From: Pseudomonadota bacterium
GTDB taxonomy: Bacteria > Pseudomonadota > Gammaproteobacteria > Acidiferrobacterales > Acidiferrobacteraceae
NCBI GenBank assembly: GCA_021777535.1
Contig: JAJYDN010000001.1
Coordinates: 1 to 64,000 of the forward strand
Length of the DNA stretch: 64,000 bases
Direction of reading: 5' to 3'
Part shown: one piece after another, positions 22,791 to 37,107 of the stretch
Layout: each line of letters starts with the position of its first letter
How positions within the stretch are numbered: position 1 is the first letter of the stretch
Notes under the pieces: generated by a model
The model's input: only the letters and a program-made list of their open reading frames with translations
Database searches by the model: none
Told to the model about the DNA's origin: nothing
Program-made: the position numbers and the translations under genes

Positions 22791-22831
22791 GACTGGCGGA
22801 GACGGTGGCGGGCGGGTCGTCTGGAGGGGGG

Positions 22832-24274
22832 ATGGGTCGATTGAAGGTGGCGTTTGTGGCGGCGGAGTGCGCGCCTTTTGCAAAGACGGGTGGACTGGGG
22901 GATGTAGTGGGGGCGCTGGCGGCAGCGCTTGGCCGGATCGGCGATGATGTAAGGGTGATACTGCCGCGTTACCGGTCGATCCAGGGCCTGCCCGGCGGAG
23001 GACCGGTGATTGCGACACTGGACGGCGGTACCGTCCGCGAGGCGGTGCTGGCCTCTGGGGTTACGGTATGGATGATCGACCGTCCGGATCTTTTCGATCG
23101 CGCGGGCCTCTATCAGGATGAAAAGGGCCACGACTACAGCGACAACGCCCTGCGGTTTGGCTGGTTTGGAAAGGTTGCGGCGCAGCTTGTCGGGGCTGAT
23201 GGTCCGCTTGCCTGGAAGGCAGACGTCGTGCATGCCCATGACTGGCACGCGGGACTCGTGCCGCTGTGGACGCGGCTTGCAGGCAATGGTCCGGCGTCTG
23301 TCCAGACTATCCACAATATGGCCTTTCAGGGGTGCTTTCCGGCCGATACCGTGCGTCTACTGGGTCTGCCGCCGGATATCTACCGGCCAGACGGCGCGGA
23401 GTTCTACGGTCATCTGTCTTTCCTGAAGGCGGGCCTTTACTACAGCGATGCCGTGACCACGGTCAGTCCGGGGTATGCGGAGGAAATCACGACGCCGGAA
23501 TTCGGTTTCGGTCTGGAGGGTCTGTTGCAGACGCGGCGTGATGATTTATCCGGCATCCTGAACGGTATCGATGTGGATGAGTGGGACCCCGCCCGGGATC
23601 CCTGGATCGGCCGGGCCTATGATGGGGACCACCTGGGCGGCAAGGTTGTCAACAAAACGCTCCTGCAGCAGGCGCTGGGATTACCGGCAGAGGCCGACAC
23701 GCCCCTGTGTGCGATGGTGAGCCGCATGACCTGGCAGAAGGGAAGCGACATCGTGCTCGACCTGGCGGACCGTTTGATCGGGGCGGGCGCGCAGCTGATT
23801 CTGCTCGGCAGTGGTGAGCGGACCCTCGAACAGGCTGCCACGGCGTTGGCTGCGCGCCATCCGTCGTCGGTGGCAGTGCGCATCGGTTTCGATGAGGCGC
23901 TGGCGCATCGGATGGAGGCAGGCGCCGACGTATTTCTCATGCCGTCGCGCTTCGAACCCTGCGGGTTGAACCAGATGTACAGCCAGCGGTACGGGACTCC
24001 CCCTGTGGTGCGCGCGACCGGGGGCCTGCGCGACACGGTCATCCCGTATGGCGGCGAAGAAACATTGGAGAGCGCGACGGGTTTTGTCTTTGAGGACAGT
24101 AGTGCCGACGGCCTGTGGCAGGCGCTGGCATCGGCGCTGGCGCTCTACCGGCGCAAGGACGCGTGGCTGCGAATCCAGAGAAATGGCATGCGCCGCGATT
24201 TCGGGTGGGGGCACAGCGCGCGCCAGTACAGAACAATTTACGAAAAACTGGTGGCGAGAAAAGAGAAGCGGTAA
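22832..24274 (+). CDS. glgA: glycogen synthase (ADP-glucose, GT5)
   Basis: Adds glucose from ADP-glucose to growing alpha-1,4-glucan. The N-terminal KVAFVAAECAPFAKTGGLGDV holds the ADP-glucose-binding KTGGLGD (Lys18). HAHDWHAG and the C-terminal MPSRFEPCGLNQMYSQRYGT motif, with the retaining GT-B Glu, are present. Length is 480 aa, as usual. The start is ATG 22832, supported by GGAGGGG just upstream; a GTG at 22805 would add nine Gly/Ser residues. glgC follows after 42 bases, giving the standard ADP-glucose pathway inside a cluster that also holds GlgE. Confidence 0.96.
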   Translation: MGRLKVAFVAAECAPFAKTGGLGDVVGALAAALGRIGDDVRVILPRYRSIQGLPGGGPVIATLDGGTVREAVLASGVTVWMIDRPDLFDRAGLYQDEKGHDYSDNALRFGWFGKVAAQLVGADGPLAWKADVVHAHDWHAGLVPLWTRLAGNGPASVQTIHNMAFQGCFPADTVRLLGLPPDIYRPDGAEFYGHLSFLKAGLYYSDAVTTVSPGYAEEITTPEFGFGLEGLLQTRRDDLSGILNGIDVDEWDPARDPWIGRAYDGDHLGGKVVNKTLLQQALGLPAEADTPLCAMVSRMTWQKGSDIVLDLADRLIGAGAQLILLGSGERTLEQAATALAARHPSSVAVRIGFDEALAHRMEAGADVFLMPSRFEPCGLNQMYSQRYGTPPVVRATGGLRDTVIPYGGEETLESATGFVFEDSSADGLWQALASALALYRRKDAWLRIQRNGMRRDFGWGHSARQYRTIYEKLVARKEKR

Positions 24275-24316
24275 GGGATACGCATCACCGGGAAGCAAAA
24301 CAAAAGGGGGAAGGTC

Positions 24317-25585
24317 ATGGCAGATCGACTAGGATCGCGTTTCGTCAGTCGTCTTACGCGGGACACGCTGGCACTGATTCTCGCCGGGGGGCGGGGCAGC
24401 CGTCTTGGGCCCATGACGCTCTGGCGCGCGAAGCCCGCAGTATCCTTTGGCGGCAAGTTCCGCATCATCGATTTCCCCCTGTCGAACTGCGTCAATTCCG
24501 GGATCCGCCGCATCGGTGTCCTGACCCAGTACAAGGCACACTCGCTCATAAGACATATCCAGCGCGGCTGGGGCTGGGCGCGCGGTGAATTTGGCGAATT
24601 CGTCGAACTTCTGCCGGCTCAGCAGAGGATCGAGGCGGCATGGTATGCGGGCACGGCCGATGCCGTCTATCAAAATCTCGATATCATCCGCAGTCACAAT
24701 CCGTCCTATGTGCTGATTCTCGCGGGCGATCATATCTATAAGATGGACTATGGTCCGATGCTTGCGCGCCACGTGGAAATGGGCGCGGATCTCACCATAG
24801 GTGCCGTGGAGGTGCCGCTCAAGGACGCCCATGCCTTCGGCGTATTGGAGACCGATGAATCGGGGTGGGTGCTCGGTTTTCAAGAGAAGCCTGACAATCC
24901 AAAACCCTCCTGTCCGGGCGGGAAGTTCGTGCGCGCATCCATGGGGATCTACGTGTTCAATACGGAATTTCTCTACAAGCAACTGATAGACGATGCCGAC
25001 TGTCCGGAATCAGCGCATGATTTCGGACGCAATATCATCCCGGGATCACTTGAAGAGCACCGCGTGGCGGCCTACCCGTTCCAGGACTTGCGTACACACC
25101 AGCAGGCCTATTGGCGCGATGTCGGCACGGTCGATGCGTACTGGCGGGCGAACATGGAGCTCGTGGGCGTCACGCCGGAGTTGAATCTCTATGATCCAGA
25201 CTGGCCCATATGGACATATCAGGAGCAGGTGCCACCGGCAAAGTTCGTTTTTGACGACGATGACCGGCGCGGCATGGCCGTGGATAGCATGGTATCGGGC
25301 GGCTGCCTCATATCGGGCGCCATGGTGCGGCGGTCTCTGCTTTTTTCCGGGGTCGTGGTGCATTCCTATTCGGAGGTCGTCGATTCCCTCGTGCTGCCAA
25401 ACGCGGATATCGGCCGCAATTGCCGCCTGCATCGTGCCGTGATCGACAAGGATTGCCGTTTGCCGGCAGGTACGATCATTGGCGAGGACCCCGAGGAGGA
25501 TGCCCGGCGCTTCTATGTCACCGATGACGGTGTGGTTTTGGTGACGCCAGAAATGCTTGGGCAGGCGCCGCATCATGTCCGCTGA
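24317..25585 (+). CDS. glgC: glucose-1-phosphate adenylyltransferase
   Basis: Makes ADP-glucose from ATP and glucose-1-phosphate, the regulated step of the classical glycogen route. The nucleotidyltransferase core reads [15 protein letters not shown], then [39 protein letters not shown] and [15 protein letters not shown] mark the substrate-binding regions, and a left-handed beta-helix C-terminus follows ([24 protein letters not shown]). Length is 422 aa. ATG 24317 has AAGGGGGAAGG just upstream. The 3' end overlaps the GH57 gene start by 11 bases. The allosteric effector cannot be predicted here. Confidence 0.96.
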
Positions 25586-27284
25586 CCAACGCGTGAAAGT
25601 GGTGCTGATGTGGCATATGCATCAGCCGCAGTACCGGCGCGCCGATACCGGCATGTACGCCGAGCCCTGGGTCTATTTGCACGCGATAAAGGACTACGTG
25701 GATATGGCGGCCCATCTCGAACAGGCGACCATGGCGCGTGCGGTAGTCAATTTCGTGCCCGTGTTGCTGGATCAGATCGCCGATTATGTGGAGCAGATCG
25801 ACCAATTTCTGAGGACTGGAAAGACCCTCCAGGATCCGCTCCTGAACGGCCTTGCCGGGGTATTTCCAGTGGAACCGCAGGGCCGGCTGGCGCTCATGCA
25901 GTGGTGTCTGCGTGCAAATCGCAAGCGGCTGATCGAACCGTGGCCGGTGTATGCGCAGCTGGTGGAGATGGTCGAGTGGCTCGGCACGCGTCCGCAGGCG
26001 CTCTCCTATGTGAACGATGCGTTTCTGCGCGATCTCGTCATGTGGTATCACCTCGTGTGGCTCGGCGAGACCGTGCGCCGCAGCGACGAACGCGTGAAGG
26101 CCCTCTTGCAGAAGGCGCGGGATTTCGATGCGGCAGATGCGCGGCAGATGATCGAAGTGATTGGCGGCCTGCTCAAGGGATTGCCGGCGCGGTATCGCGC
26201 CCTTGAGGATGCCGGGCGGGTCGAGCTTTCATTTAGCCCCTATTCTCATCCGATCGTGCCGCTCCTTATCGACTGGACCGTGGCCCGTGAAGCGCAGCCG
26301 GATGTCACGCTGCCGCCAGGGGCGCCGTATCCAGATGGACTGGCCCGGGCGCGCGCGCAAATAACGGCGGGCCAGGCGGCCTTCTCGCGCCATTTCGGGC
26401 GGACTGCGCGCGGCTGCTGGTTGTCGGAAGGCGGTGTCAGTCACGCAGCCTTGCAGTTGCTAGACGAGCTGCATGTCGAATGGACGGCCAGCGGGGGTGC
26501 CGTGCTGGTGCATAGTCTGGGGAATGGGGGCCCTGACCCCAGTGTGCCTTTGGGCCCCTATTGCGTGGGCGATACGCACGTGCACTGCTTTTTCCGTGAC
26601 GATGATTTGTCCGATCGTATCGGATTTCGCTACGCGGAATGGCGGGCCGACGATGCGGTCGGCGACCTCGTGGCCGGTCTCGAGAAGAGGGCGCAGGCCC
26701 TGGAGCATACGGAGTCCCCGGTCATCCCCATCATTCTCGATGGGGAAAATGCATGGGAATACTATGCGCACAACGGCTTTTATTTTCTGCAGGCCCTCTA
26801 CGAACGGCTGAGCGTGCATCCGGTTTTGTCACTGGGCACGTTCGCGGACGTGCTCGATCATGGAGCCGTGCCGCGCGCATTGCCGCGTCTGGTCGCCGGC
26901 AGCTGGGTATACGGCACTTTTTCCACGTGGATTGGTTCGGCGGACAAGAATCGTGCATGGGAACTGCTCGTGCGCGTCAAGCAGGCCGCAGACGATGCCT
27001 TGCGCAGTCGTACGTTCACCGCGGCGCAGGCGGCCGCGATCGACAGGCAGCTCATGGTATGCGAAGGGTCGGATTGGTTCTGGTGGTATGGTGACTACAA
27101 TCCGCGGGATTCGGTGGCGGCCTTCGATGCGCTGTACCGCGCACATCTGCGCCGTCTGTTCTCGTTGATGGGCGTGCCGCCACCAGATGCGCTGGAACAG
27201 GTGCTCGGCGTCGGGCACGGGGAACCCATGCGTGGAGGCACGATGCGGGCCACCCACGGCGACTTCCAAGGAGGGGCAACGTGA
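25575..27284 (+). CDS. GH57 alpha-glucan-active glycoside hydrolase (COG1449 type)
   Basis: Member of glycoside hydrolase family 57, which includes alpha-amylases, 4-alpha-glucanotransferases and branching enzymes. The start MWHMHQPQY is the family's first conserved region. The nucleophile region is [10 protein letters not shown] with Glu285, and an Asp-rich [18 protein letters not shown] at about 340-357 holds the likely acid-base Asp. [21 protein letters not shown] is also typical. Length is 569 aa with no signal peptide, so it acts in the cytoplasm. It is tightly packed: the start overlaps glgC and the stop overlaps malQ (GTGA). Exact activity is unassigned; maltooligosaccharide amylase or transferase are both plausible. 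Confidence 0.85.
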
Positions 27285-28735
27285 ACCGGGGAAAGAGGGG
27301 GATTTTCGGCGGGCGCCGGCGGGCCGGCGTCCTTCTGCATCTCAGTTCCTTGCCGCATGACAGCTACGAACCGGGCATGCAGCGGTCGGCGCGGCATTTT
27401 ATCGATTTCCTGTACGAGGCGGGATTGTCTGTCTGGCAGATGCTGCCAATTGGACCGTCACACAACGGCTCCCCGTATGACCTCGCCTCCTCGCATGCCG
27501 GGCATCCGGTTTATATCAGCGATGATCCGCTGCCCGCGGGGCTGCCGGCTGGGCTCGGGCGTGAGGAGGGCGTAGCGCGCCTCGAGGCGGCGTTTGCTTT
27601 TTGTGAAGAAAGAGGCCAGCCGCCAGAACTGGAAATTTTTCTGGCCGAGCACAGCGGCTGGATAGATGACTACGCGCTCTTTCAGACACTGAAGGCGCGG
27701 GAAGGCGGGCGCCCATGGTGGGAATGGCCGCAGCCGCTGCGCGATCACGAGAGCGCGGCCCTGGTGCCGATCCGGGCGAGCGCGGATTTCCGGCGGCACC
27801 GTTTCTGGCAATGGATATTTTTTCATCAATGGGCCGACCTGCGTCAGTACGCGCGAAACAAAGGTGTCTTGTTGTTCGGGGACATGCCGTTTTTCGTGGC
27901 ACACGACAGCGCGGATGTGTGGGCGCATCGTGATCTCTTTCGTCTGGACGACCAGGGGCGCCCGGACGTCGTGGCCGGCGTGCCGCCGGATTATTTCTCG
28001 GCCGAGGGCCAGCGGTGGGGCAACCCCGTATATCGGTGGGACGTGATGGCGAGGCAGGGTTTCCAGTGGTGGCGTGAACGCCTCAAAACGCAGTTGACGC
28101 TCTTCGATCTGGTGCGCATCGATCATTTCCGGGGACTGGAGTCGTGCTGGGAGATACCGGCCGAGGCACAGACGGCGGCCGCCGGCCACTGGGGCAAGGC
28201 ACCGGGCGAGGCGTTGCTCGACAGTCTCGAGGGGCTATGGGCCAATCTGCCTGTGGTGGCCGAGGATCTCGGGGTGATAACCGATGCGGTAATCGAATTA
28301 CGTGACCGGCATGGACTGGCGGGCATGAAGGTGCTGCAGTTTGCCTTTGGTGATGACGCGCGCAATCCCTATTTGCCCCATAATCACGTGCGGAATGCCG
28401 TAGCCTACACAGGGACGCACGACAATGACACGACGGTCGGGTGGTTCAATGGACTGGCGCCTTCCGTGCAGGACTACGTGCGCGAGTATCTCGGTGCGCG
28501 CGAACCCATGCCATGGGCGCTGATCCGCGCCGCCATGGCGTCGGTGGCCGATCTGGCCGTGGTGCCGATGCAGGATCTGCTTGCGCTGGATTCGTGTTAT
28601 CGCATGAATACACCGGGCAGTACACGAGGCAACTGGACCTATCGATTATCGTGGACCGACATCCCGGATGATCTGGCGCTGCGTGTGCGTCATCTCACCG
28701 AACTCTACGACCGGCACCGGCCGGCCGCGGACTAG
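27281..28735 (+). CDS. malQ: 4-alpha-glucanotransferase (amylomaltase, GH77)
   Basis: Disproportionates maltooligosaccharides, lengthening short chains for GlgP and releasing glucose. The GH77 hallmarks are GVLLHLSSLP ... GLSVWQMLPIGP, SPYDLASSHAG, the nucleophile in RIDHFRG (Asp281), acid-base Glu328 (VVAEDLGVIT) and YTGTHDNDTTVGWF. Length is 484 aa, the short bacterial type. It starts at GTG 27281 inside the GH57 stop, with AAGGAGGGG upstream. Its TAG stop overlaps the stop of convergent glgP (CTAG). Confidence 0.95.
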   Translation: MNRGKRGIFGGRRRAGVLLHLSSLPHDSYEPGMQRSARHFIDFLYEAGLSVWQMLPIGPSHNGSPYDLASSHAGHPVYISDDPLPAGLPAGLGREEGVARLEAAFAFCEERGQPPELEIFLAEHSGWIDDYALFQTLKAREGGRPWWEWPQPLRDHESAALVPIRASADFRRHRFWQWIFFHQWADLRQYARNKGVLLFGDMPFFVAHDSADVWAHRDLFRLDDQGRPDVVAGVPPDYFSAEGQRWGNPVYRWDVMARQGFQWWRERLKTQLTLFDLVRIDHFRGLESCWEIPAEAQTAAAGHWGKAPGEALLDSLEGLWANLPVVAEDLGVITDAVIELRDRHGLAGMKVLQFAFGDDARNPYLPHNHVRNAVAYTGTHDNDTTVGWFNGLAPSVQDYVREYLGAREPMPWALIRAAMASVADLAVVPMQDLLALDSCYRMNTPGSTRGNWTYRLSWTDIPDDLALRVRHLTELYDRHRPAAD

Positions 28736-31281
28736 AGCCAGGTCATGAGGCCGGTCTCGAAGCGGTGCGCGAGATCGGGGTGATGGGGATACATACGCAG
28801 GCGGTAGTAGTGGCGTCCGGCGAAATCCGGAGTAAAGACGAGCCGGTACAGGTGTCCCTGACCCTCGCCCATCTCGGGCTTCAGGACGAGCGTTTTGTGC
28901 ATGATTTTCTCCGTGGTGGCATCGTCGGATTCATAGATCACGCATTCGACGACCACATCCTCCGGCGCAAGCCGGTTCAGATCGACAACCACGTTCAGCG
29001 TAAGGGCCTCGCCTGCAACGGCGGTCCGCGGCATGTCACCGACGATGCGGCCGCGCACATGGGGCCACGCCGCAGCCACGCGCTGTTTCCAGTCGGCCAG
29101 GGCGCGTGCCCGCGCGCCGTGATCGGCGCCCAATGCGCGCACGAGTTCCATGGCGGGGCGGTAGAAATCCTCGAGATATTCAAGCAGCATACGTTCCGCG
29201 TTGAATACGGGCAGCGCCTGCCTCATGGCGTTCTTTGAGAGGCGGATCCACCCGGGGGAGTAGCCCTGGCCCTCGCGCGCGAAATAAAGAGGCATGATTT
29301 CGCGCTCGAGAATGTCGAGAAGTTCCCCGGCTTCGTTGCGATCACGTTCGGCTGGATCGCTGTGTATGCTCGGCGCGATCGCCCAGCCATTGTCGCCGTG
29401 AAATCCCTCGCCCCACCAGCCATCCAGTACGCTCAGATTCAGGACGCCATTCAGGGCGGCCTTCTGTCCGGATGTGCCGCTTGCCTCGAGGGGATATTGG
29501 GGTGTGTTGAGCCAGACGTCGACACCGCTCACAAGCTTGCGGGCAAGCGAGAGATCGTAGTCCTCGAGCAGGATGACCCGCCCCTCGAATTCCGGGCGCC
29601 GCGAAATTTCGTGGATCGCGCGCAACAATTCCTGACCGGGGAGGTCGTGCGGATGGGCCTTGCCGGCGAACAGGAGGAGTATCGGTCTCGATGGATCGGA
29701 TAGCAGACGCGCAAGGCGTACCGGGTCCGAAAAGATCAGTGTTGCGCGTTTGTAGGTGGCAAACCGGCGGGCAAACCCGAGAACCAGGGGATTGCACTGA
29801 TCGTCGTTCAGGTAGCGGCAGGCGCGGGTAATGGCGGATTCTGTCAGTCCGTAGCGCCGAAGCTGGTGGGCAAGACGGGTGCGCGCGGCGACCAGCATTT
29901 CGGCTTTGAGGCCGCGCCGGACGCTCCAATAGGCGTGATCCGGGATCAGGTCGAGGCGTACCCAGTATTCCTTGTTGACGAGTTCGTTGCGCCATCCGCT
30001 GCCAAGCCGCATATCGAGAAGCTGGGCCCACTCGCGGGCAAGGAAGGTGGGGACATGGACGCCGTTGGTGACGTGGCGCAACGGGTTTTCCGCGTGGGGA
30101 ATTTCGGGCCAGACATAGCCCTCCATCGCGGACGCGACGGTCCCGTGTATGCGGCTTACGCCGTTTTGCTGCCGGGATCCGCGCAGCGCAAAGGCCGTCA
30201 TGTTGAAGCCGCCGGAGTTCGCCGGGCTGCTGCCGAGGCTTGCAAACCGGCTGAAGGGGATGCCGAGCTCGTCGATGTAGCTGCCGAGATAGGCTTCGAT
30301 CAGTGTGTGATCGAAGATGTCATGGCCTGCGGCAACCGGTGTGTGTGTCGTAAATACCGTGCCGGCCGCCGTCAGTTCAAAGGCCCCGTCGAAATCCATG
30401 CCGCGATGCACCAGTTCCCGGGTGCGCTCGATCAGCTGGAAGGCGGAATGGCCTTCGTTGATGTGCCAGGCCGCTGGCGCGATGCCTGCCGCGCGCAGGA
30501 CACGCACGCCGCCGATGCCGAGCACCATTTCCTGCTGGATGCGGGTGTGGCGGTCTCCCCCATAGAGCTGGTGCGTTATCGTTCGATCGGTTGGCTCGTT
30601 TTCCGGGATGTCGCTGTCGAGAAGGTAGAGGCGGATATTGCCGACTTCGGCCACCCACACCTTGAGACGCAGTTCCCGTTCCTGCAGGCGCAGCAAAACG
30701 AACAAGGGCGAACCATCGGGACCGTAGGCTGTGCTGATGGGCAGGTCTTCGAATTCACTGCGTGTGTCGCGCACCAGCTGATTGCCGTGCTGGTCGATCG
30801 TCTGGTTGAAATAACCCTGCCGGTACAGAAGGCCGACAGCCGTGAAAGGGAGCCCGAGGTCGCTCGCTGCCTTGCAGTGATCGCCAGCCAGAATGCCAAG
30901 TCCGCCGGAATAGATCGGCAGGCTTTCGTGAATGCCGAACTCGGCACAGAAATAGGCGATACCATCGGCTGGATTGACCCAGGCCGGGGTCCGGTGGCGG
31001 CGGTCGGCGCGATAGCTGTCGAAGATGGATAGCGCGCGCTGGTATTCCTCGAGGAAAACGTGGTCCGAAGCTGCCTCGTTCAGTCTTGCCTGGGGTATCC
31101 GCTGCAGGAGGACCTTGGGATTGTGTCCGCAGGTGCGCCAGAGATGCCGGTCGAGGCGGATGAAAAGCGCGCGAATCTGGTGGTTCCAGCTGTAAAGGAG
31201 GTTGTTCGCGAGTTCCGGAAGCCGCGCGAGGCGCGCCGGAACGACCGGTCGGACATCGATGACGTGATAGCTTCCGGACAT
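28732..31281 (-). CDS. glgP: alpha-glucan (glycogen/maltodextrin) phosphorylase, GT35
   Basis: Phosphorolyses alpha-1,4-glucan to glucose-1-phosphate with a PLP cofactor. The PLP-lysine region EASGTSGQKAALNGVLNLSVLDGWW is clear, with Lys near residue 606. This Mycobacterium/Thermotoga-type short-domain form begins with DUF3417-like sequence (PARLARLPELANNLLYSWN). Length is 849 aa. I chose ATG 31281 (MSGSYHVIDVRP), preceded by GAGGAA on this strand; an upstream in-frame start at 31323 adds 14 residues with no support. It is convergent with malQ, stops overlapping, and has its own promoter region facing the DoxD-like gene's 3' end. The product feeds GlgC directly. Confidence 0.94.
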   Translation of the reverse strand: MSGSYHVIDVRPVVPARLARLPELANNLLYSWNHQIRALFIRLDRHLWRTCGHNPKVLLQRIPQARLNEAASDHVFLEEYQRALSIFDSYRADRRHRTPAWVNPADGIAYFCAEFGIHESLPIYSGGLGILAGDHCKAASDLGLPFTAVGLLYRQGYFNQTIDQHGNQLVRDTRSEFEDLPISTAYGPDGSPLFVLLRLQERELRLKVWVAEVGNIRLYLLDSDIPENEPTDRTITHQLYGGDRHTRIQQEMVLGIGGVRVLRAAGIAPAAWHINEGHSAFQLIERTRELVHRGMDFDGAFELTAAGTVFTTHTPVAAGHDIFDHTLIEAYLGSYIDELGIPFSRFASLGSSPANSGGFNMTAFALRGSRQQNGVSRIHGTVASAMEGYVWPEIPHAENPLRHVTNGVHVPTFLAREWAQLLDMRLGSGWRNELVNKEYWVRLDLIPDHAYWSVRRGLKAEMLVAARTRLAHQLRRYGLTESAITRACRYLNDDQCNPLVLGFARRFATYKRATLIFSDPVRLARLLSDPSRPILLLFAGKAHPHDLPGQELLRAIHEISRRPEFEGRVILLEDYDLSLARKLVSGVDVWLNTPQYPLEASGTSGQKAALNGVLNLSVLDGWWGEGFHGDNGWAIAPSIHSDPAERDRNEAGELLDILEREIMPLYFAREGQGYSPGWIRLSKNAMRQALPVFNAERMLLEYLEDFYRPAMELVRALGADHGARARALADWKQRVAAAWPHVRGRIVGDMPRTAVAGEALTLNVVVDLNRLAPEDVVVECVIYESDDATTEKIMHKTLVLKPEMGEGQGHLYRLVFTPDFAGRHYYRLRMYPHHPDLAHRFETGLMTWL

Positions 31282-31505
31282 GTCGTTATTCCTCGGTCGT
31301 GCCACCGGCAGGCAAGGGCGCACAGCCGTTTGCGCAGCAGCGGGGCTTTAGGAACTCCGACCAGACTAACTCAAGAAGGCGGCGCATGAAAGGCAAGGGA
31401 GGCGGAGTGGCGAGCCCCGCCCTGCCGCGCTCCATCGCCTGGACGCACATATCCAGGCGCTTTCCCAAAGAGCGCGTGGTTCGGGTACCCGTGTGCCCCG
31501 GCCGC

Positions 31506-32447
31506 CTAAAGGCCCTCGCGTTTCGTGCGCATCATGTAGCCGACCATAAGGAAGAGATAGACCAGCATATAGATGTTGCAGGTGCCGAGCACGTCACCCC
31601 GGTTACCGGTGCTGCCCAGGGCATAGGGTCCGCCCCAGCCTTCTGCGGTCGTCCATACCCCGAAAGAGTAAAGAAAGCCAATCGGCAAGAACCAGTTCTG
31701 GGCGCGCTTGAAGAGCAGACTTGCGGCAAGTACCGTCTCGGCGGTTGCGGCAAAAAGACCGAAGAAAAACGGGCCGAAGATGCCGAATATCCGGAGGGCA
31801 ATCCCGATGTAGGCGACGATCCACGCCGGCTGGCCTGCCTCTGAAGCCTGCAGGTAGGTGAGACTGTTGTGCAGAAAATCTGGTTGCCACTTCCAGAAGG
31901 CATCAAAGGCCCAGAGGAGACCGAAGAGAATCCGTACCGGTTCCAGTGCATGGGGCCCTGGCGTCGATTCGCCCGATGCGTCAAAGGTGAGGCGCCGGTT
32001 GGAGGGCACGGACAGTATCGTGAAAAAGACAAGCGCATAGACGATCGCGGTGCCCGGATCGGTGGCGCCAGCCGTGTAGGGTCCGCCAAATCCGCCAACC
32101 GTCGACCACAAGACGAGATTATAGAGAACCCCAAACCACGCAAGGGGGCGCAGGGCGACGCCCGTGAGCAGCGACAGGGCGAGAACCGCATTGATGGCGA
32201 CCGTGGCAATGGCAACGTTCTCGGCGCCGAGCGCCGAGACGACGGTTGCCATGGCGTGAATGTAGTGGGCAAGGACCGCCGGTTGGCCTTTTTCGCGCTG
32301 GATGATGGTCCCGAAAAAGGCCGTTACATAGGAGTGATTGGCCTCCAGGACGGTGTTCGCCACCCAAATCGCCCCAAAGAGAAGGCGCAACATCGCGAAG
32401 GCCAGTTCCTGATTTTTGGTATAGGCGGTCGAATTGACATTGCTCAT
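31506..32447 (-). CDS. DoxX/DoxD-like membrane protein with two tandem copies of the domain
   Basis: A 313-aa integral membrane protein. The two halves look alike: LRLLFGAIW...GQPA...SLLTGVALRPLAWFGVLYNLVLWSTVGGFGGPYTAG in the first, and VRILFGLLW...GQPA...SLLFKRAQNWFLPIGFLYSFGVWTTAEGWGGPYALG in the second. Each has about four hydrophobic segments. This resembles the DoxD subunit of thiosulfate:quinone oxidoreductase and the wider DoxX family, duplicated. The start ATG 32447 begins MSNVNSTAYTKNQE; the frame upstream is not protein-like. It is divergent from the cyo quinol oxidase operon, so a role in delivering electrons to quinone is plausible but inferred. Substrate not known. Confidence 0.75.
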   Translation of the reverse strand: MSNVNSTAYTKNQELAFAMLRLLFGAIWVANTVLEANHSYVTAFFGTIIQREKGQPAVLAHYIHAMATVVSALGAENVAIATVAINAVLALSLLTGVALRPLAWFGVLYNLVLWSTVGGFGGPYTAGATDPGTAIVYALVFFTILSVPSNRRLTFDASGESTPGPHALEPVRILFGLLWAFDAFWKWQPDFLHNSLTYLQASEAGQPAWIVAYIGIALRIFGIFGPFFFGLFAATAETVLAASLLFKRAQNWFLPIGFLYSFGVWTTAEGWGGPYALGSTGNRGDVLGTCNIYMLVYLFLMVGYMMRTKREGL

Positions 32448-32954
32448 TGCACAATCAGCTCCGGGGTGAAAAACGATGGGTTGCATTATAGCGAACTCGG
32501 CCAGCGCCCGGGAGGGAAAAAGCGACCATACGGCGGGCGATGAGCGGGGCTGGGTAGCCGTTGGGCAAATGCCCGTTTGCTGCCGAAAAGACCGGCAGAA
32601 GATGCAAGGCACAGCTGCCGGGGCGGTTTCGCGACCGCCCATCGGACAGGGTAACGGAATCATTCCGAGACCCCAGGGGACGGGTCAAGGAGGGGCAGAA
32701 AATCCCTTAGATTTGATCTAAGTCAAAGGCTGCGCACGGGTGGGGCTGCTACCCTTTGTTCGCAATTTAAGGGCTGGAATGATATTAGTTCAGGAAGGGA
32801 GCGGATCCGGCAGGATCCGGCAGCCTGGACGTTTCAAAAGAAAAGTCCATCATTAATTATAGGTTATGCAGGGGACGTTGCCCGGCGTTACGGCGGATAA
32901 CAGCCCGCATCGGGTGACGGCAACAGTCCAAGTCTGGCCACAGGATTACACAGT
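32448..32954. other. divergent intergenic region between DoxD-like gene and cyoA
   Basis: About 507 bases without a credible gene. It holds the FNR/ANR-like box at 32713-32726, followed by a possible weak -10 (TACCCT at 32750-32755), and a direct repeat of GGATCCGGCA near 32804-32821. Long open frames here on either strand are continuations of the antisense of the DoxD-like gene or its 5' extension. Confidence 0.6.
32713..32726. promoter_or_regulatory. FNR/ANR-type binding site upstream of cyoABCD
   Basis: TTGATCTAAGTCAA matches the FNR consensus TTGAT-N4-ATCAA at nine of ten positions. Its centre is about 33 bases before a TACCCT hexamer, close to the spacing of a class II activator site, though E. 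coli FNR represses cyo. It could control either or both divergent genes. Confidence 0.65.
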
Positions 32955-33917
32955 ATGTCCAAAAGAGGCATTAAAGGGGCCATCAAGGCCTTGTGCGCAC
33001 CGTTGCTTTTGATGCTTAACGGCTGCTCGAAAAGCGGGCTGTATCTGCTGGAGCCGGAAGGCACGATCTCGCGCGTTACGCACCATTACTTCAACCTCGA
33101 CGTGGGCATCATGCTGCTCATCATCATTCCGACGGCATTGCTGTCCGTATGGGCGATGTGGCGGTACCGCAAGGGCGGGGGAGGGTCGTACCGGCCGGAT
33201 TGGAGCCATTCGTGGTTCATCGAGGCCGTCGTATGGGGTATCCCGCTCATCACGGTGGGCGTCCTGTCCTACCTGTCGGTGAAGGCGATCTACAAGGTGA
33301 ATCCCTATAATCCAGGAGCCCTTGCCCATCAGGAAGCGGCGGCGGGCAAACCGCTTGAGGTGGATGTTATCGTCACCGATTGGCGCTGGCTCTTTATTTA
33401 CCCGGGACAGAGGATCGCGTCGGTCAATCATCTCGTGCTGCCGGTGGGCGTACCCGTGCATTTCCGACTGACATCGACGTCGGTCGTCAACGATTTCATC
33501 ATCCCGCAACTGGTCGGCATGATCGATGTTATTCCCGGGATGCGTACCAAGCAGACGCTCGAGGCCAGCAAGACCGGGCACTATGTCGGTTTTTCCGCCG
33601 ATTACAGCGGTGCCGGCCTGTCATGGATGAACTTCGAGACGCAGACTGTGACGAAGGCGAAGTTCGCGCAGTGGGTGAAGAAGACACAAGCCGCGCCGCA
33701 CAATATGACTGACGCAGCCTTCAATCTCTTTGCGAAGCCGTATATTTCCATCGATCACCGGCCCATGGTTTTTGGGCACGTGCAGAGTGGCCTGTTTGAT
33801 TACGTGGTCCACGAAGTTATGTCAGGGAAGGTTTGGCCGACGCCCACGGCCATGACAGAAAACATGGTGAAATACATGAACAAACAACAGGCGAACGTCA
33901 AAGCAGGAGATTATTGA
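32955..33917 (+). CDS. cyoA: cytochrome bo-type ubiquinol oxidase subunit II
   Basis: Membrane-anchored lipoprotein subunit of a haem-copper quinol oxidase. It has a signal with lipobox-like LNGC, then YLLEPEGTIS, two membrane helices (about 45-70 and 85-110) and a periplasmic cupredoxin domain. The CuA ligands of cytochrome c oxidases (Cys-x3-Cys and following His/Met) are missing: the matching region reads FSADYSGAGLSWMNF. This makes it a quinol oxidase subunit rather than CoxB. A COX_ARM-like C-terminus follows. Length is 320 aa. The ATG at 32955 has no strong ribosome site. The stop lies two bases before the cyoB ATG. Confidence 0.93.
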   Translation: MSKRGIKGAIKALCAPLLLMLNGCSKSGLYLLEPEGTISRVTHHYFNLDVGIMLLIIIPTALLSVWAMWRYRKGGGGSYRPDWSHSWFIEAVVWGIPLITVGVLSYLSVKAIYKVNPYNPGALAHQEAAAGKPLEVDVIVTDWRWLFIYPGQRIASVNHLVLPVGVPVHFRLTSTSVVNDFIIPQLVGMIDVIPGMRTKQTLEASKTGHYVGFSADYSGAGLSWMNFETQTVTKAKFAQWVKKTQAAPHNMTDAAFNLFAKPYISIDHRPMVFGHVQSGLFDYVVHEVMSGKVWPTPTAMTENMVKYMNKQQANVKAGDY

Positions 33918-33919
33918 TT

Positions 33920-35956
33920 ATGTTCGTGCATTTGCAAGGCCCATGGAATCCCGTCTGGGGGCGCCTATCCCTGCAGGCTATCCCGTACCACAATCCGATC
34001 CTGGTTGGTACGTTCCTGTTCGCAGTCGTTATCGCGCTGGCGGCTGTGGGCGCGGTTTTGTACTTCCGTGCCGGACCTTACCTGTGGCGGGAGTGGCTGA
34101 CGACCGTCGACCACAAGAAGATCGGTGTCATGTACTGCCTCCTCGGTCTCGTCATGTTGTTCCGGGGATTCGCTGATGCGCTGATGATTCGTACCCAGCA
34201 GGCGATTGCGGTCGGACCGCATTCGCCAGGTTACCTCGGCGCCCTCCACGGGTACCTGACGCCCTTTCATATCGGGCAGGTGTACACGGCACACGGCCTT
34301 ATCATGGTCGTCTTCGCGGCGACGCCGCTGCTGGTCGGCATCATGAACATCATCGTGCCCCTGCAGATCGGCGCGCGCGACATGGCCTATCCCTACCTGA
34401 ATGCGCTCGGTTTCTGGCTGACCGCAGCGGCAGCCGGACTCGTCATGCTGTCGCTGTTTGTCGGTAACTTCGCGCATGGCGGCTGGTATGGATTCCTGCC
34501 GTACTTCGAGCTGCCTTACAGTCCGGGTGTCGGTGTCGATTACTGGATGTGGGCGTTCCAGCTGAGCGCGGTCGGCACGACGCTTGGCAGTATCAATCTC
34601 ATCGCGACGATCGTCAAAATGCGCGCCCCGGGCATGACCTGGATGCGCATGCCGATCTTCACTTGGGCATCGCTCAGCACCAATCTCATTGCGCTGACTT
34701 CCTTCCCCGTTCTCATGGTGAGCCTGGCGCTGCTTGGTCTCGATCGTTATTTCGGTACGCACTTCTACACGGCGGGCAACGGCGGCAACCTGATGCTCTA
34801 TAACGACCTGTTCTGGGTCTGGGGGCATCCGGAGGTGTACTTCCTCATCCTGCCGGCGTTCGGCATGATGTCGGAAATCATCCCGACTTTCTCCGAAAAG
34901 ACGCTGTTTGGGTATACCACCATGGTCGTGGCTTCATTTGCGATCGGTGGCGTGTCCTGGGGCGTATGGCTGCATCATTTCTTCACGATGGCGGCCGAGC
35001 CGAGCGTCAACAGCTTCTACAGTGTGACGACGATGCTGGTCGGTATCCCGACCGGCGTGAAGGTCTTCAACTGGATTTTCACCATGTATCGTGGCCGGGT
35101 GCGGTTTGAGCTGCCGATGATGTGGGCGGTGCTGGCGCTCTTCCTGCTCCTTGTGGGCGGTATGAGCGGCATGATGAACGCCTTCGCCGCCAACGATTAT
35201 ATGTGGCACAACGGCGTGTTCGTGGTGGCGCACTTTCATATGATGGTGCTGCTGATTGCGGCGAGCATCTTTGGGGCGGTCGAGTACTGGTTCCCGAAGA
35301 TATTCGGGTTCAAGCTCGAGCAGCGCTGGGGCAAGTGGTTCTTCTGGTTCATGGTACTTGGTACCGCCTGGGTATTCGTGCCGATGTTCATTCTCGGATT
35401 TACCGGGATGACGCGCCGTCTCGACTACGTTCCCTATACCCAGTGGGCTCCGTACCTGCGTGTCATGCTCGTCGGTATGGCGTTCTATGTGATCGCGCTC
35501 GTCTTTTTCTTCGCGCATCTGTACGTGAGCCTGCGGGATCGCGTGAAGAATCGCGTAGGGGCGGATCCGTGGGGTACCTCGCGCAATCTTGAATGGATGA
35601 CGCATTCGCCCGTACCGGCGTACAACTTCGCCTATATTCCGCATGTGCATGCCCGGGACGAGTGGGCCTGGCGCAAGGAAAATGGCGTCGCAAGCCTGGC
35701 CAACGAATCGTTCGAGGACATTCACATGCCGCGCAATACCGGCGTGCCGGTCTTGCTGGGCGCCCTTTCCTTCGTCCTGTGCTTTGGCCTGATATGGCGG
35801 ATCTGGTGGCTGTCGGCGGCGAGCCTGGCGCTTGTGGTGCTGGTGATCATCGTGCGTTCCTTTGCGCGCAATACCGACGAGGTGATCACCGCAAAGACCG
35901 TTGCGGGTGTCGAGGGGGCGGTGGACGATGCCTTGCCTTCGGCGGCGCGGGGATAG
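33920..35956 (+). CDS. cyoB: cytochrome bo-type ubiquinol oxidase subunit I
   Basis: Catalytic proton-pumping subunit. It has the extra N-terminal helix of quinol oxidases and the quinone-site region LFRGFADAL (Arg82, Asp86, matching E. coli Arg71 and Asp75). The CuB site is WGHPEVY (His303 with cross-linked Tyr307) and WLHHFF (His352, His353). The haem ligands lie in VAHFHMM (His438, His440). The C-terminal PHVHARDEWAW and FEDIHMPRNTG also match CyoB closely. Length is 678 aa. ATG 33920 follows AGGAG in the last cyoA codons. The upstream in-frame ATG at 33833 lies inside cyoA and is rejected. Confidence 0.96.
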   Translation: MFVHLQGPWNPVWGRLSLQAIPYHNPILVGTFLFAVVIALAAVGAVLYFRAGPYLWREWLTTVDHKKIGVMYCLLGLVMLFRGFADALMIRTQQAIAVGPHSPGYLGALHGYLTPFHIGQVYTAHGLIMVVFAATPLLVGIMNIIVPLQIGARDMAYPYLNALGFWLTAAAAGLVMLSLFVGNFAHGGWYGFLPYFELPYSPGVGVDYWMWAFQLSAVGTTLGSINLIATIVKMRAPGMTWMRMPIFTWASLSTNLIALTSFPVLMVSLALLGLDRYFGTHFYTAGNGGNLMLYNDLFWVWGHPEVYFLILPAFGMMSEIIPTFSEKTLFGYTTMVVASFAIGGVSWGVWLHHFFTMAAEPSVNSFYSVTTMLVGIPTGVKVFNWIFTMYRGRVRFELPMMWAVLALFLLLVGGMSGMMNAFAANDYMWHNGVFVVAHFHMMVLLIAASIFGAVEYWFPKIFGFKLEQRWGKWFFWFMVLGTAWVFVPMFILGFTGMTRRLDYVPYTQWAPYLRVMLVGMAFYVIALVFFFAHLYVSLRDRVKNRVGADPWGTSRNLEWMTHSPVPAYNFAYIPHVHARDEWAWRKENGVASLANESFEDIHMPRNTGVPVLLGALSFVLCFGLIWRIWWLSAASLALVVLVIIVRSFARNTDEVITAKTVAGVEGAVDDALPSAARG

Positions 35957-36031
35957 AACGGCAGCCCCTGGAACTGACGCTCCGGCGGTGCGCCGGAGCC
36001 AACCGACAGTGAGCAGTGGAGTGGGAGATTC

Positions 36032-36673
36032 ATGAGTTCAACGACAGACACGCGTATACAGCCCGGATCAACGGTGCTTTGGGACAAAGGAGATGCGGCG
36101 GGGCATGACATTCTGGGTACGAGAACCTTCGGGTTCTGGTTGTACATGCTCACGGATGCCATGGTTTATGCTGCATTTTTTGCGGCGTTCGGAGTGCTTG
36201 CGCACAATGCGGGCCTAAACAGCAAATCCGTGCTGGCGGCAGTATTCAATGCGCAGGGCGCCTATCGGGAAACCATCGCGCTGTTTGCGAGCGTGCTTGC
36301 GTACGGCTACGCGATGGTAGCCCTGAAAAAGGGCAGCCGCAGCGGCGTTGCGGTCGGTACGGTCGTCGCCCTGGTCCTGGGCCTTGTTTTTCTCGGCATG
36401 GTCAGCGGCGACATGGAAAGGCTTTTCGGTCAGGGTATCGTCCCCCAGTCGAACGGGTTTTTGTCGATCGTCTTTACGCTCATCATTTACCACGCGCTCC
36501 ATATCATAGTCGGTGCGATCTGGATGCTGGTCATGCTGGCACAGATGGGCCGGGATGGTTTTACGAGCAATGTCGTCTACCGGTTGATTAATTTGCGCAT
36601 CTTCTGGCATTTCCAGGCGGTCATCTGGGTATTCATCTTCGTCTTCGTTTATCTGCAAGGGAAGGTCATATGA
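36032..36673 (+). CDS. cyoC: cytochrome bo-type ubiquinol oxidase subunit III
   Basis: Helical subunit of the quinol oxidase, 213 aa with five predicted membrane segments. The sequence GTRTFGFWLYMLTDAMVYAAFFAAFGVL resembles the E. coli CyoC start, and INLRIFWHFQAVIWVFIFVFVYL is the typical last helix. GGAG lies upstream of ATG 36032, 75 bases after cyoB. The stop overlaps the cyoD ATG by four bases. Confidence 0.94.
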   Translation: MSSTTDTRIQPGSTVLWDKGDAAGHDILGTRTFGFWLYMLTDAMVYAAFFAAFGVLAHNAGLNSKSVLAAVFNAQGAYRETIALFASVLAYGYAMVALKKGSRSGVAVGTVVALVLGLVFLGMVSGDMERLFGQGIVPQSNGFLSIVFTLIIYHALHIIVGAIWMLVMLAQMGRDGFTSNVVYRLINLRIFWHFQAVIWVFIFVFVYLQGKVI

Positions 36674-37107
36674 CGCATTCGGTCGATAATCCTCTGCATC
36701 ATCCCGAGGTAGAGCAGGCCAGCTTTGCGGGCTATCTGGCCAATTTCGTCATCACGGTGGTCGTCATGACGGCGGCCCTGTGGGTTGTGGGGGACAAGTC
36801 CCTGTCGACACTGGGATTCATCGGATGGACGACGCTTTTTGCGGTGGTGGCGGTGCTGGTGCAGGCCTATTTCCTGCTGCACATGAACTGGTCGAAGGCG
36901 CAAGTCTGGCACACCGTGGCCATGCTGATGTTCATTCCGCTCTTTGTGGTCATGATCGGATTGACGGCGTGGATGTTCCATGGACTGTATGAGCGGACCA
37001 TGATTGCCATGCCCCCTCACACGATGGCGGCACCCATGAAGAGGGCGGCGCCCGCGCAGGCGGTACCGCCGGTGAGTCAACCGGTGCCGGCGCCGAAGGC
37101 CATGTAG
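36670..37107 (+). CDS. cyoD: cytochrome bo-type ubiquinol oxidase subunit IV with C-terminal extension
   Basis: Small accessory subunit that helps assemble the CuB site. It has three membrane segments (about 20-42, 48-72, 80-103), including LVQAYFLLHMNW, typical of CyoD. At 145 aa it is longer than the usual ~110: about 30 extra C-terminal residues are rich in Met, Pro and Ala (from MPPHTMAAPMKRAAP). Translationally coupled to cyoC (ATGA). A terminator follows, and no cyoE (haem O synthase) gene is linked. Confidence 0.9.
   Translation: MTHSVDNPLHHPEVEQASFAGYLANFVITVVVMTAALWVVGDKSLSTLGFIGWTTLFAVVAVLVQAYFLLHMNWSKAQVWHTVAMLMFIPLFVVMIGLTAWMFHGLYERTMIAMPPHTMAAPMKRAAPAQAVPPVSQPVPAPKAM

Follow-up and report, generated by a model that had tools for sequence, protein, structure and literature searches.

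An internally duplicated DoxX-like membrane protein of the Acidiferrobacteraceae and its predicted resemblance to the GGCX transmembrane domain

DoxX-like proteins (PF07681) are built on a four-helix membrane unit, and to our knowledge most of them have no assigned mechanism. TMEM35 is presumably classed with these proteins, and its member NACHO/TMEM35A is a single unit that acts as a eukaryotic receptor assembly factor. DoxD (PF04173), together with DoxA (PF07680), makes up the thiosulfate:quinone oxidoreductase DoxDA. A further quinone-handling membrane protein is the human vitamin K gamma-carboxylase, GGCX, whose transmembrane domain is of the HTTM type (PF05090). Vitamin K in GGCX sits among TM5-TM8 and is deprotonated there by the base K218, and the TM5-TM6 loop forms a cap (PMC12589487).

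We analyzed a stretch of 64,000 nucleotides of Acidiferrobacteraceae DNA (contig JAJYDN010000001.1), referred to below as the window, which encodes a protein made of two fused units of this kind. In this work we call it the tandem protein, with "N-half" and "C-half" for its two parts.

The tandem gene and its duplication

The tandem gene lies on the (-) strand at 31506..32447, stop codon included, and encodes a protein of 313 amino acids that ends after the last helix (helix 8). Its start codon is the ATG at 32447. The open reading frame extends upstream to 32663, which would give a protein of 385 amino acids; because this ATG is where the alignment with the relatives begins, the longer frame was rejected as the gene. 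Repeat 1, which is degenerate, covers residues 11-146 (32010..32417, minus strand), as placed by hhalign comparison of the halves, the helices of the structural model, residue counts and the alignment of relatives. Repeat 2, the putatively live one, covers residues 165-305 (31533..31955, minus strand), as placed by hhalign, a model of that half alone and the alignment.

The internal duplication of the tandem protein is genuine, and the duplicated unit looks like a four-helix one of DoxX type, as an earlier note on this DNA had proposed. Profiles of the N-half and C-half, built from 30 family members, align with hhalign over 133 columns at 29% identity (probability 99.57%, E 1.1e-23), and a reversed C-half control reached a probability of 0.08% against the N-half. 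Plain BLAST likewise matches residues 160-301 with the N-halves of several related proteins, with E values down to 1e-12. The repeated motifs that the note had listed are real: an alignment of halves and single units contains 17 columns (R, F, G, P, A, L, G, W, T, G, G, P, Y, G, T, G and Y) that are invariant in 13/13 rows. The predicted order of helices is likewise identical in the two halves of the AlphaFold2 model.

Single-unit relatives of ~170 amino acids were found on Mycobacterium plasmids, on a Thioclava plasmid and in one further Pseudomonadota genome (G252). They match both halves of the tandem protein, with hhalign probabilities of 99.78% and 99.85%. In a maximum-likelihood tree, the N-halves all fell to one side of one branch, and the C-halves to one side of another (support 100/99 and 100/98); its rooting is not shown, and its long branches caution against interpreting the placement of the single units. 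Since the N-halves and C-halves are each grouped, one duplication preceded the spread of the gene through the sampled lineages. One ancient duplication accounts for all of the tandem copies.

Relationship to DoxX and DoxD

Judged by its sequence, the tandem protein stands as DoxX-like, although weakly so, and not as DoxD. The predicted helix order of each half is DoxX-like, and repeat 2 has in common with DoxX an R-x13-K motif in TM1 and, one membrane helix further on, an acidic residue. Matches of the single units to PF07681 had E values of 0.0025, 0.0065 and 0.063 (14.4-18.9 bits), all below the curated cut-off of 23.6 bits, as was the match of one tandem relative (L022, E 0.017). The tandem protein itself had no PF07681 match in the Pfam profile search, and it differs from DoxX in consisting of two fused units, one of them degenerate, and in its conserved GGPY loops and the long stretch that follows TM1. 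No model was reached in Pfam by the whole protein or its halves, or in NCBIfam by the whole protein. Sub-threshold matches in these libraries to MatC_N (E 0.001), Imm11 and, on a relative, Glycophorin_A were taken as noise from membrane composition.

The earlier note had described the repeated unit as DoxX/DoxD. The DoxX-like part of that description holds, whereas the DoxD part does not; the broad fold is probably common to DoxD and the tandem protein. Neither the whole protein nor either half, searched separately, matched PF04173 or PF07680 at E values up to 10. The halves reached a probability of only 0.2-0.5% against a DoxD profile, and by direct hhalign they were at or near the reversed controls against the DoxD, DoxX and HTTM profiles, where the DoxX and DoxD profile sets are small and come from one bacterial family. 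In the DoxD of the host bacterial family, C127, D129, E130, W131, H44 and H46 are invariant, the first four being found in 13 sequences as part of a GATCIDEW motif. This motif with its invariant cysteine is absent from the 30 members of the tandem family, which have no invariant Cys or His and no Cys column above 10/30. Accordingly, the tandem protein itself contains neither a heme or thiol site nor a metal site. At the position of the R-x13-K motif, DoxD carries R-x13-R (14/14).

A genuine DoxDA fusion occurs as a separate gene in the same genome (contig C15, L001 955-2052), with scores of 104 bits for PF04173 and 48 bits for PF07680. DoxA (PF07680) is neither fused nor adjacent to the tandem gene, whose neighbors in the window are glucan phosphorylase and cyo. 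Within the host family, a DoxD match was present in 14/18 genomes, compared with 18/18 for the tandem gene.

Gene neighborhood and distribution

The tandem gene is separated by an intergenic region of 507 bases (32448..32954) from the divergent cyoA-cyoB-cyoC-(cyoD) quinol oxidase genes (32955..37107, plus strand), which the earlier note had reported correctly. Promoter-like matches in the intergenic region were not above chance. The best NCBIfam matches of CyoA, CyoB and CyoC are ubiquinol oxidase models, all below their equivalog cut-offs, and the CyoD position is without a match; by sequence, the oxidase is of a divergent bo3 type. When the loci of 30 relatives were compared, the divergent cyo genes were shared by only two, L002 and L006, which are the closest relatives. 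The note's inference of a quinone-reducing partner from the cyo neighbor fails accordingly. Also beside the tandem gene is an alpha-glucan cluster (22805-31323), in which GlgA-like, GlgC-like, GH57-like and MalQ-like open reading frames were recognized by eye and an alpha-glucan phosphorylase by its match to TIGR02094 (770 bits). In L002 and L006, too, the tandem gene is followed by genes for a phosphorylase and for MalQ-like and GH57-like proteins.

Other neighborhoods are of several kinds. Ten other loci, of the Acidiferrobacteraceae type, have tatD and mostly also holB downstream of the tandem gene. Eight Acidithiobacillus loci have genes for a CusR-type response regulator and a sensor kinase divergent from it, with outer-membrane efflux genes further out and, in seven, genes for periplasmic adaptors. 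The Thioclava single unit has genes for multicopper oxidase, rhodanese and DsrE around it, and the Mycobacterium single unit is near genes for a CsoR-type repressor, DsbA and a flavoprotein resembling sulfide-quinone reductase (SQR) or FCSD. These neighborhoods hint at metal and sulfur stress and not at a stable partner.

The metal-related neighbors could mean that the tandem protein serves in metal (copper) stress at the cell envelope and is expressed with the CusR-type two-component system and multicopper oxidase, any link to quinones being secondary or absent. The response regulator of the eight Acidithiobacillus loci is of a heavy-metal type (TIGR01387, over the cut-off in L015), a CueO-like multicopper oxidase gene is convergent in four of the eight, and the multicopper oxidase and CsoR-type genes near the single units agree with this idea. 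We nevertheless consider it improbable, given that the copper neighborhood is absent from Acidithiobacillus sp. YTS05, from the loci with tatD/holB neighbors and from the window, and that the tandem family has no conserved metal site of Cys, His or Met.

The sulfur-related neighbors bear in a similar way on the earlier note's own proposal, a DoxD-type oxidoreductase that would pass electrons from thiosulfate or another sulfur compound to quinone and work with the adjacent quinol oxidase. A DoxX-like fold in a sulfur-oxidizing acidophile lineage is in keeping with such a function, as are the rhodanese and DsrE genes in Thioclava and the flavoprotein gene in Mycobacterium. It is made very unlikely by the absence of DoxD or DoxA similarity, the lack of counterparts to DoxD C127, H44 and H46, the genuine DoxDA elsewhere in the genome and the poor conservation of the cyo adjacency. 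The quinone link proposed in the note is plausible, but we found no evidence implicating thiosulfate.

The tandem gene is present in 18/18 host-family genomes, 22/57 genomes of the host order and 25/31 genomes of the order of Acidithiobacillus, but in only 2/299 sampled Pseudomonadota, the source genome included. On this distribution, the tandem gene is a candidate marker for acidophile biology, and one left unnamed by the family libraries used (Pfam and NCBIfam). The named loci are mostly from Acidithiobacillus, Proteobacteria metagenome-assembled genomes, Acidiferrobacteraceae and Acidiphilium, which suggests a link between the tandem family and acidophily. With a single unit as query, one match was found among 385 genomes of the class of G252, and a phage search gave none.

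Some genomes have more than one tandem gene, with two copies in Acidithiobacillus sp. YTS05 (L022 and L023; NZ_CP094359.1) and three in genome G691. The tandem gene may be mobile, since insertion sequences surround the copy carried by the A. caldus megaplasmid (L032). In one family of the host order (f233, genomes G736-G742), the gene was found in 4/5 genomes of genus g429 and was absent from the two sister genera sampled; one match, in G738 (E 8.9e-85), stands out as more divergent.

Predicted structure, conserved residues and possible function

The full-length AlphaFold2 model, made from a 29-row alignment, has a pLDDT of 79.5 and a pTM of 0.83. When Foldseek candidates were re-aligned, model residues 1-306 fell on GGCX residues 47-315 with a Z score of 13.7 (248 residues, rmsd 4.7), in a range (Z 13-14) that, as the aligner cautions, helical models can reach without a clear relative. 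Because of this caution, we rate the predicted likeness of the whole chain to the GGCX transmembrane domain as suggestive. It is favored by the full coverage, with the eight-helix arrangement matching end to end, and by the gap in scores: fifteen GGCX entries lead the re-alignment at Z 11.6-13.7, and the next unrelated row is at 6.3. Foldseek's own scores for GGCX were E 1.3-3.9 and TM 0.43-0.47, and its search of the full model against the PDB gave no E below 0.001. ABC transporters, which held the first Foldseek ranks, were rejected (rmsd about 25, TM 0.11-0.14), and the otopetrin (Z 6.3) and TTYH rows were treated as background.

No sequence homology to GGCX was detected. The full-length protein reached a probability of 5% against an HTTM profile by hhalign, PF05090 had no Pfam match in the tandem protein or elsewhere in its own genome, and PDB searches with single sequences and profiles gave no useful match. 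When repeat 2 was modeled alone (pLDDT 80.3), its best solved match was NACHO/TMEM35A, with a Z of 9.0 and 12% identity; the next row was at 6.2. Against BFVD, this C-half model placed a giant-virus "DoxX family protein" on top, with a probability of 0.95 but an E of 0.83. GGCX was missing from the C-half structure search, and the register on GGCX is therefore supported by motif spacing and by the match of the whole chain, not by a residue-level structural alignment. An open-access library yielded no paper joining DoxX with cyoABCD, gamma-glutamyl carboxylase, the HTTM domain, or Acidithiobacillus and copper; earlier mentions elsewhere are possible.

Repeat 2 carries the motif in question, R172-x13-K186, in its first helix (RILFGLLWAFDAFWK; 31890..31934, minus strand); R172 and K186 (codon 31890-31892, minus strand) are invariant in 30/30 relatives. 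At the equivalent position of repeat 1, residue 35, the lysine has been lost, and Q (16/30) or E (14/30) is found instead. Repeat 2 has another conserved charged residue, E237 (31737..31739, minus strand), in the membrane helix that follows; E237 is invariant in 30/30 and retained in the single units. The R-x13-K motif also occurs in the DoxX of the host family (14/14 complete sequences), in the single units (3/3) and in bacterial HTTM proteins (2/3). In GGCX, R204 and K218 of TM5 have the same spacing, K218 being R204+14 as K186 is R172+14. Colinear mapping places repeat 2 on GGCX TM5-TM8, so that the lysine would be in the second half, as is the GGCX quinone site. In an ungapped helix test, TM1 of repeat 2 ranked 1/132 against DoxX, 3e-5 of all windows tested scoring as high, and GGCX TM5 ranked 2/258, behind GGCX TM1. 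Given that second place and a register unconfirmed by profiles, we attach moderate weight to the proposal that the tandem protein binds quinone.

The fold and the position of the lysine could be taken to mean that the tandem protein is itself a carboxylase or epoxidase like GGCX. This is barely credible for a protein of 313 amino acids that has nothing after its last helix, has no lumenal propeptide-binding domain and, among its invariant residues, no His matching H160 of the GGCX Glu pocket.

A non-redox role is another reading, which we regard as somewhat unlikely. The tandem protein would then be a membrane scaffold or assembly factor of DoxX-like fold whose conserved lysine and loops bind partners, in the way that NACHO/TMEM35A assembles receptors or mycobacterial DoxX keeps other enzymes together in a complex. 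The highly conserved stretches of the family include the loops GGPY-x-GxTD and TAEGWG-PY, the best solved match of repeat 2 is a receptor assembly factor, and the family has neither an invariant Cys nor an invariant His with which to do redox chemistry. Parts of the mycobacterial literature also name DoxX alongside a membrane-associated oxidoreductase complex. K186 and E237, however, are invariant within membrane helices, which would be unusual in a pure scaffold, and no partner gene stays adjacent across genera.

We tentatively favor a different possibility, in which the tandem protein is a periplasm-facing protein that binds quinone or quinol and has one live and one degenerate repeat. It would be an inner-membrane protein with eight main transmembrane helices, formed when a DoxX-like unit of four helices was duplicated in tandem and fused in one ancient event, with its two repeats packed as one pseudo-symmetric bundle like the GGCX/HTTM transmembrane domain. 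Repeat 1, having lost its lysine, would be mainly a structural half. Repeat 2, with the likely functional residues R172, K186 and E237 and its conserved periplasmic loops, would hold the quinone or quinol near the periplasmic face, where K186 might protonate or deprotonate the head group. The charges of the loops fit a periplasmic position of K186 by the positive-inside rule. The quinone pool could in this way be coupled, through a partner protein, to a periplasmic process involving thiols, sulfur or metal stress. Alternatively, K186, lying where TM1 ends, could be a structural anchor.

A broader idea, rather doubtful at present, is that the DoxX-like proteins and the GGCX membrane domain represent one quinone-handling design in which the lysine of R-x13-K is the quinol base, the acidophile family being an independent or ancestral tandem form. 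If this is true, the acidophile tandem family would be a carboxylase-free quinone enzyme of minimal design, required for life in acid and having one half live and the other dead. In a protein that fuses a live and a degenerate unit, a lysine spaced like the well-studied base of GGCX provides a concrete residue for testing quinone chemistry.
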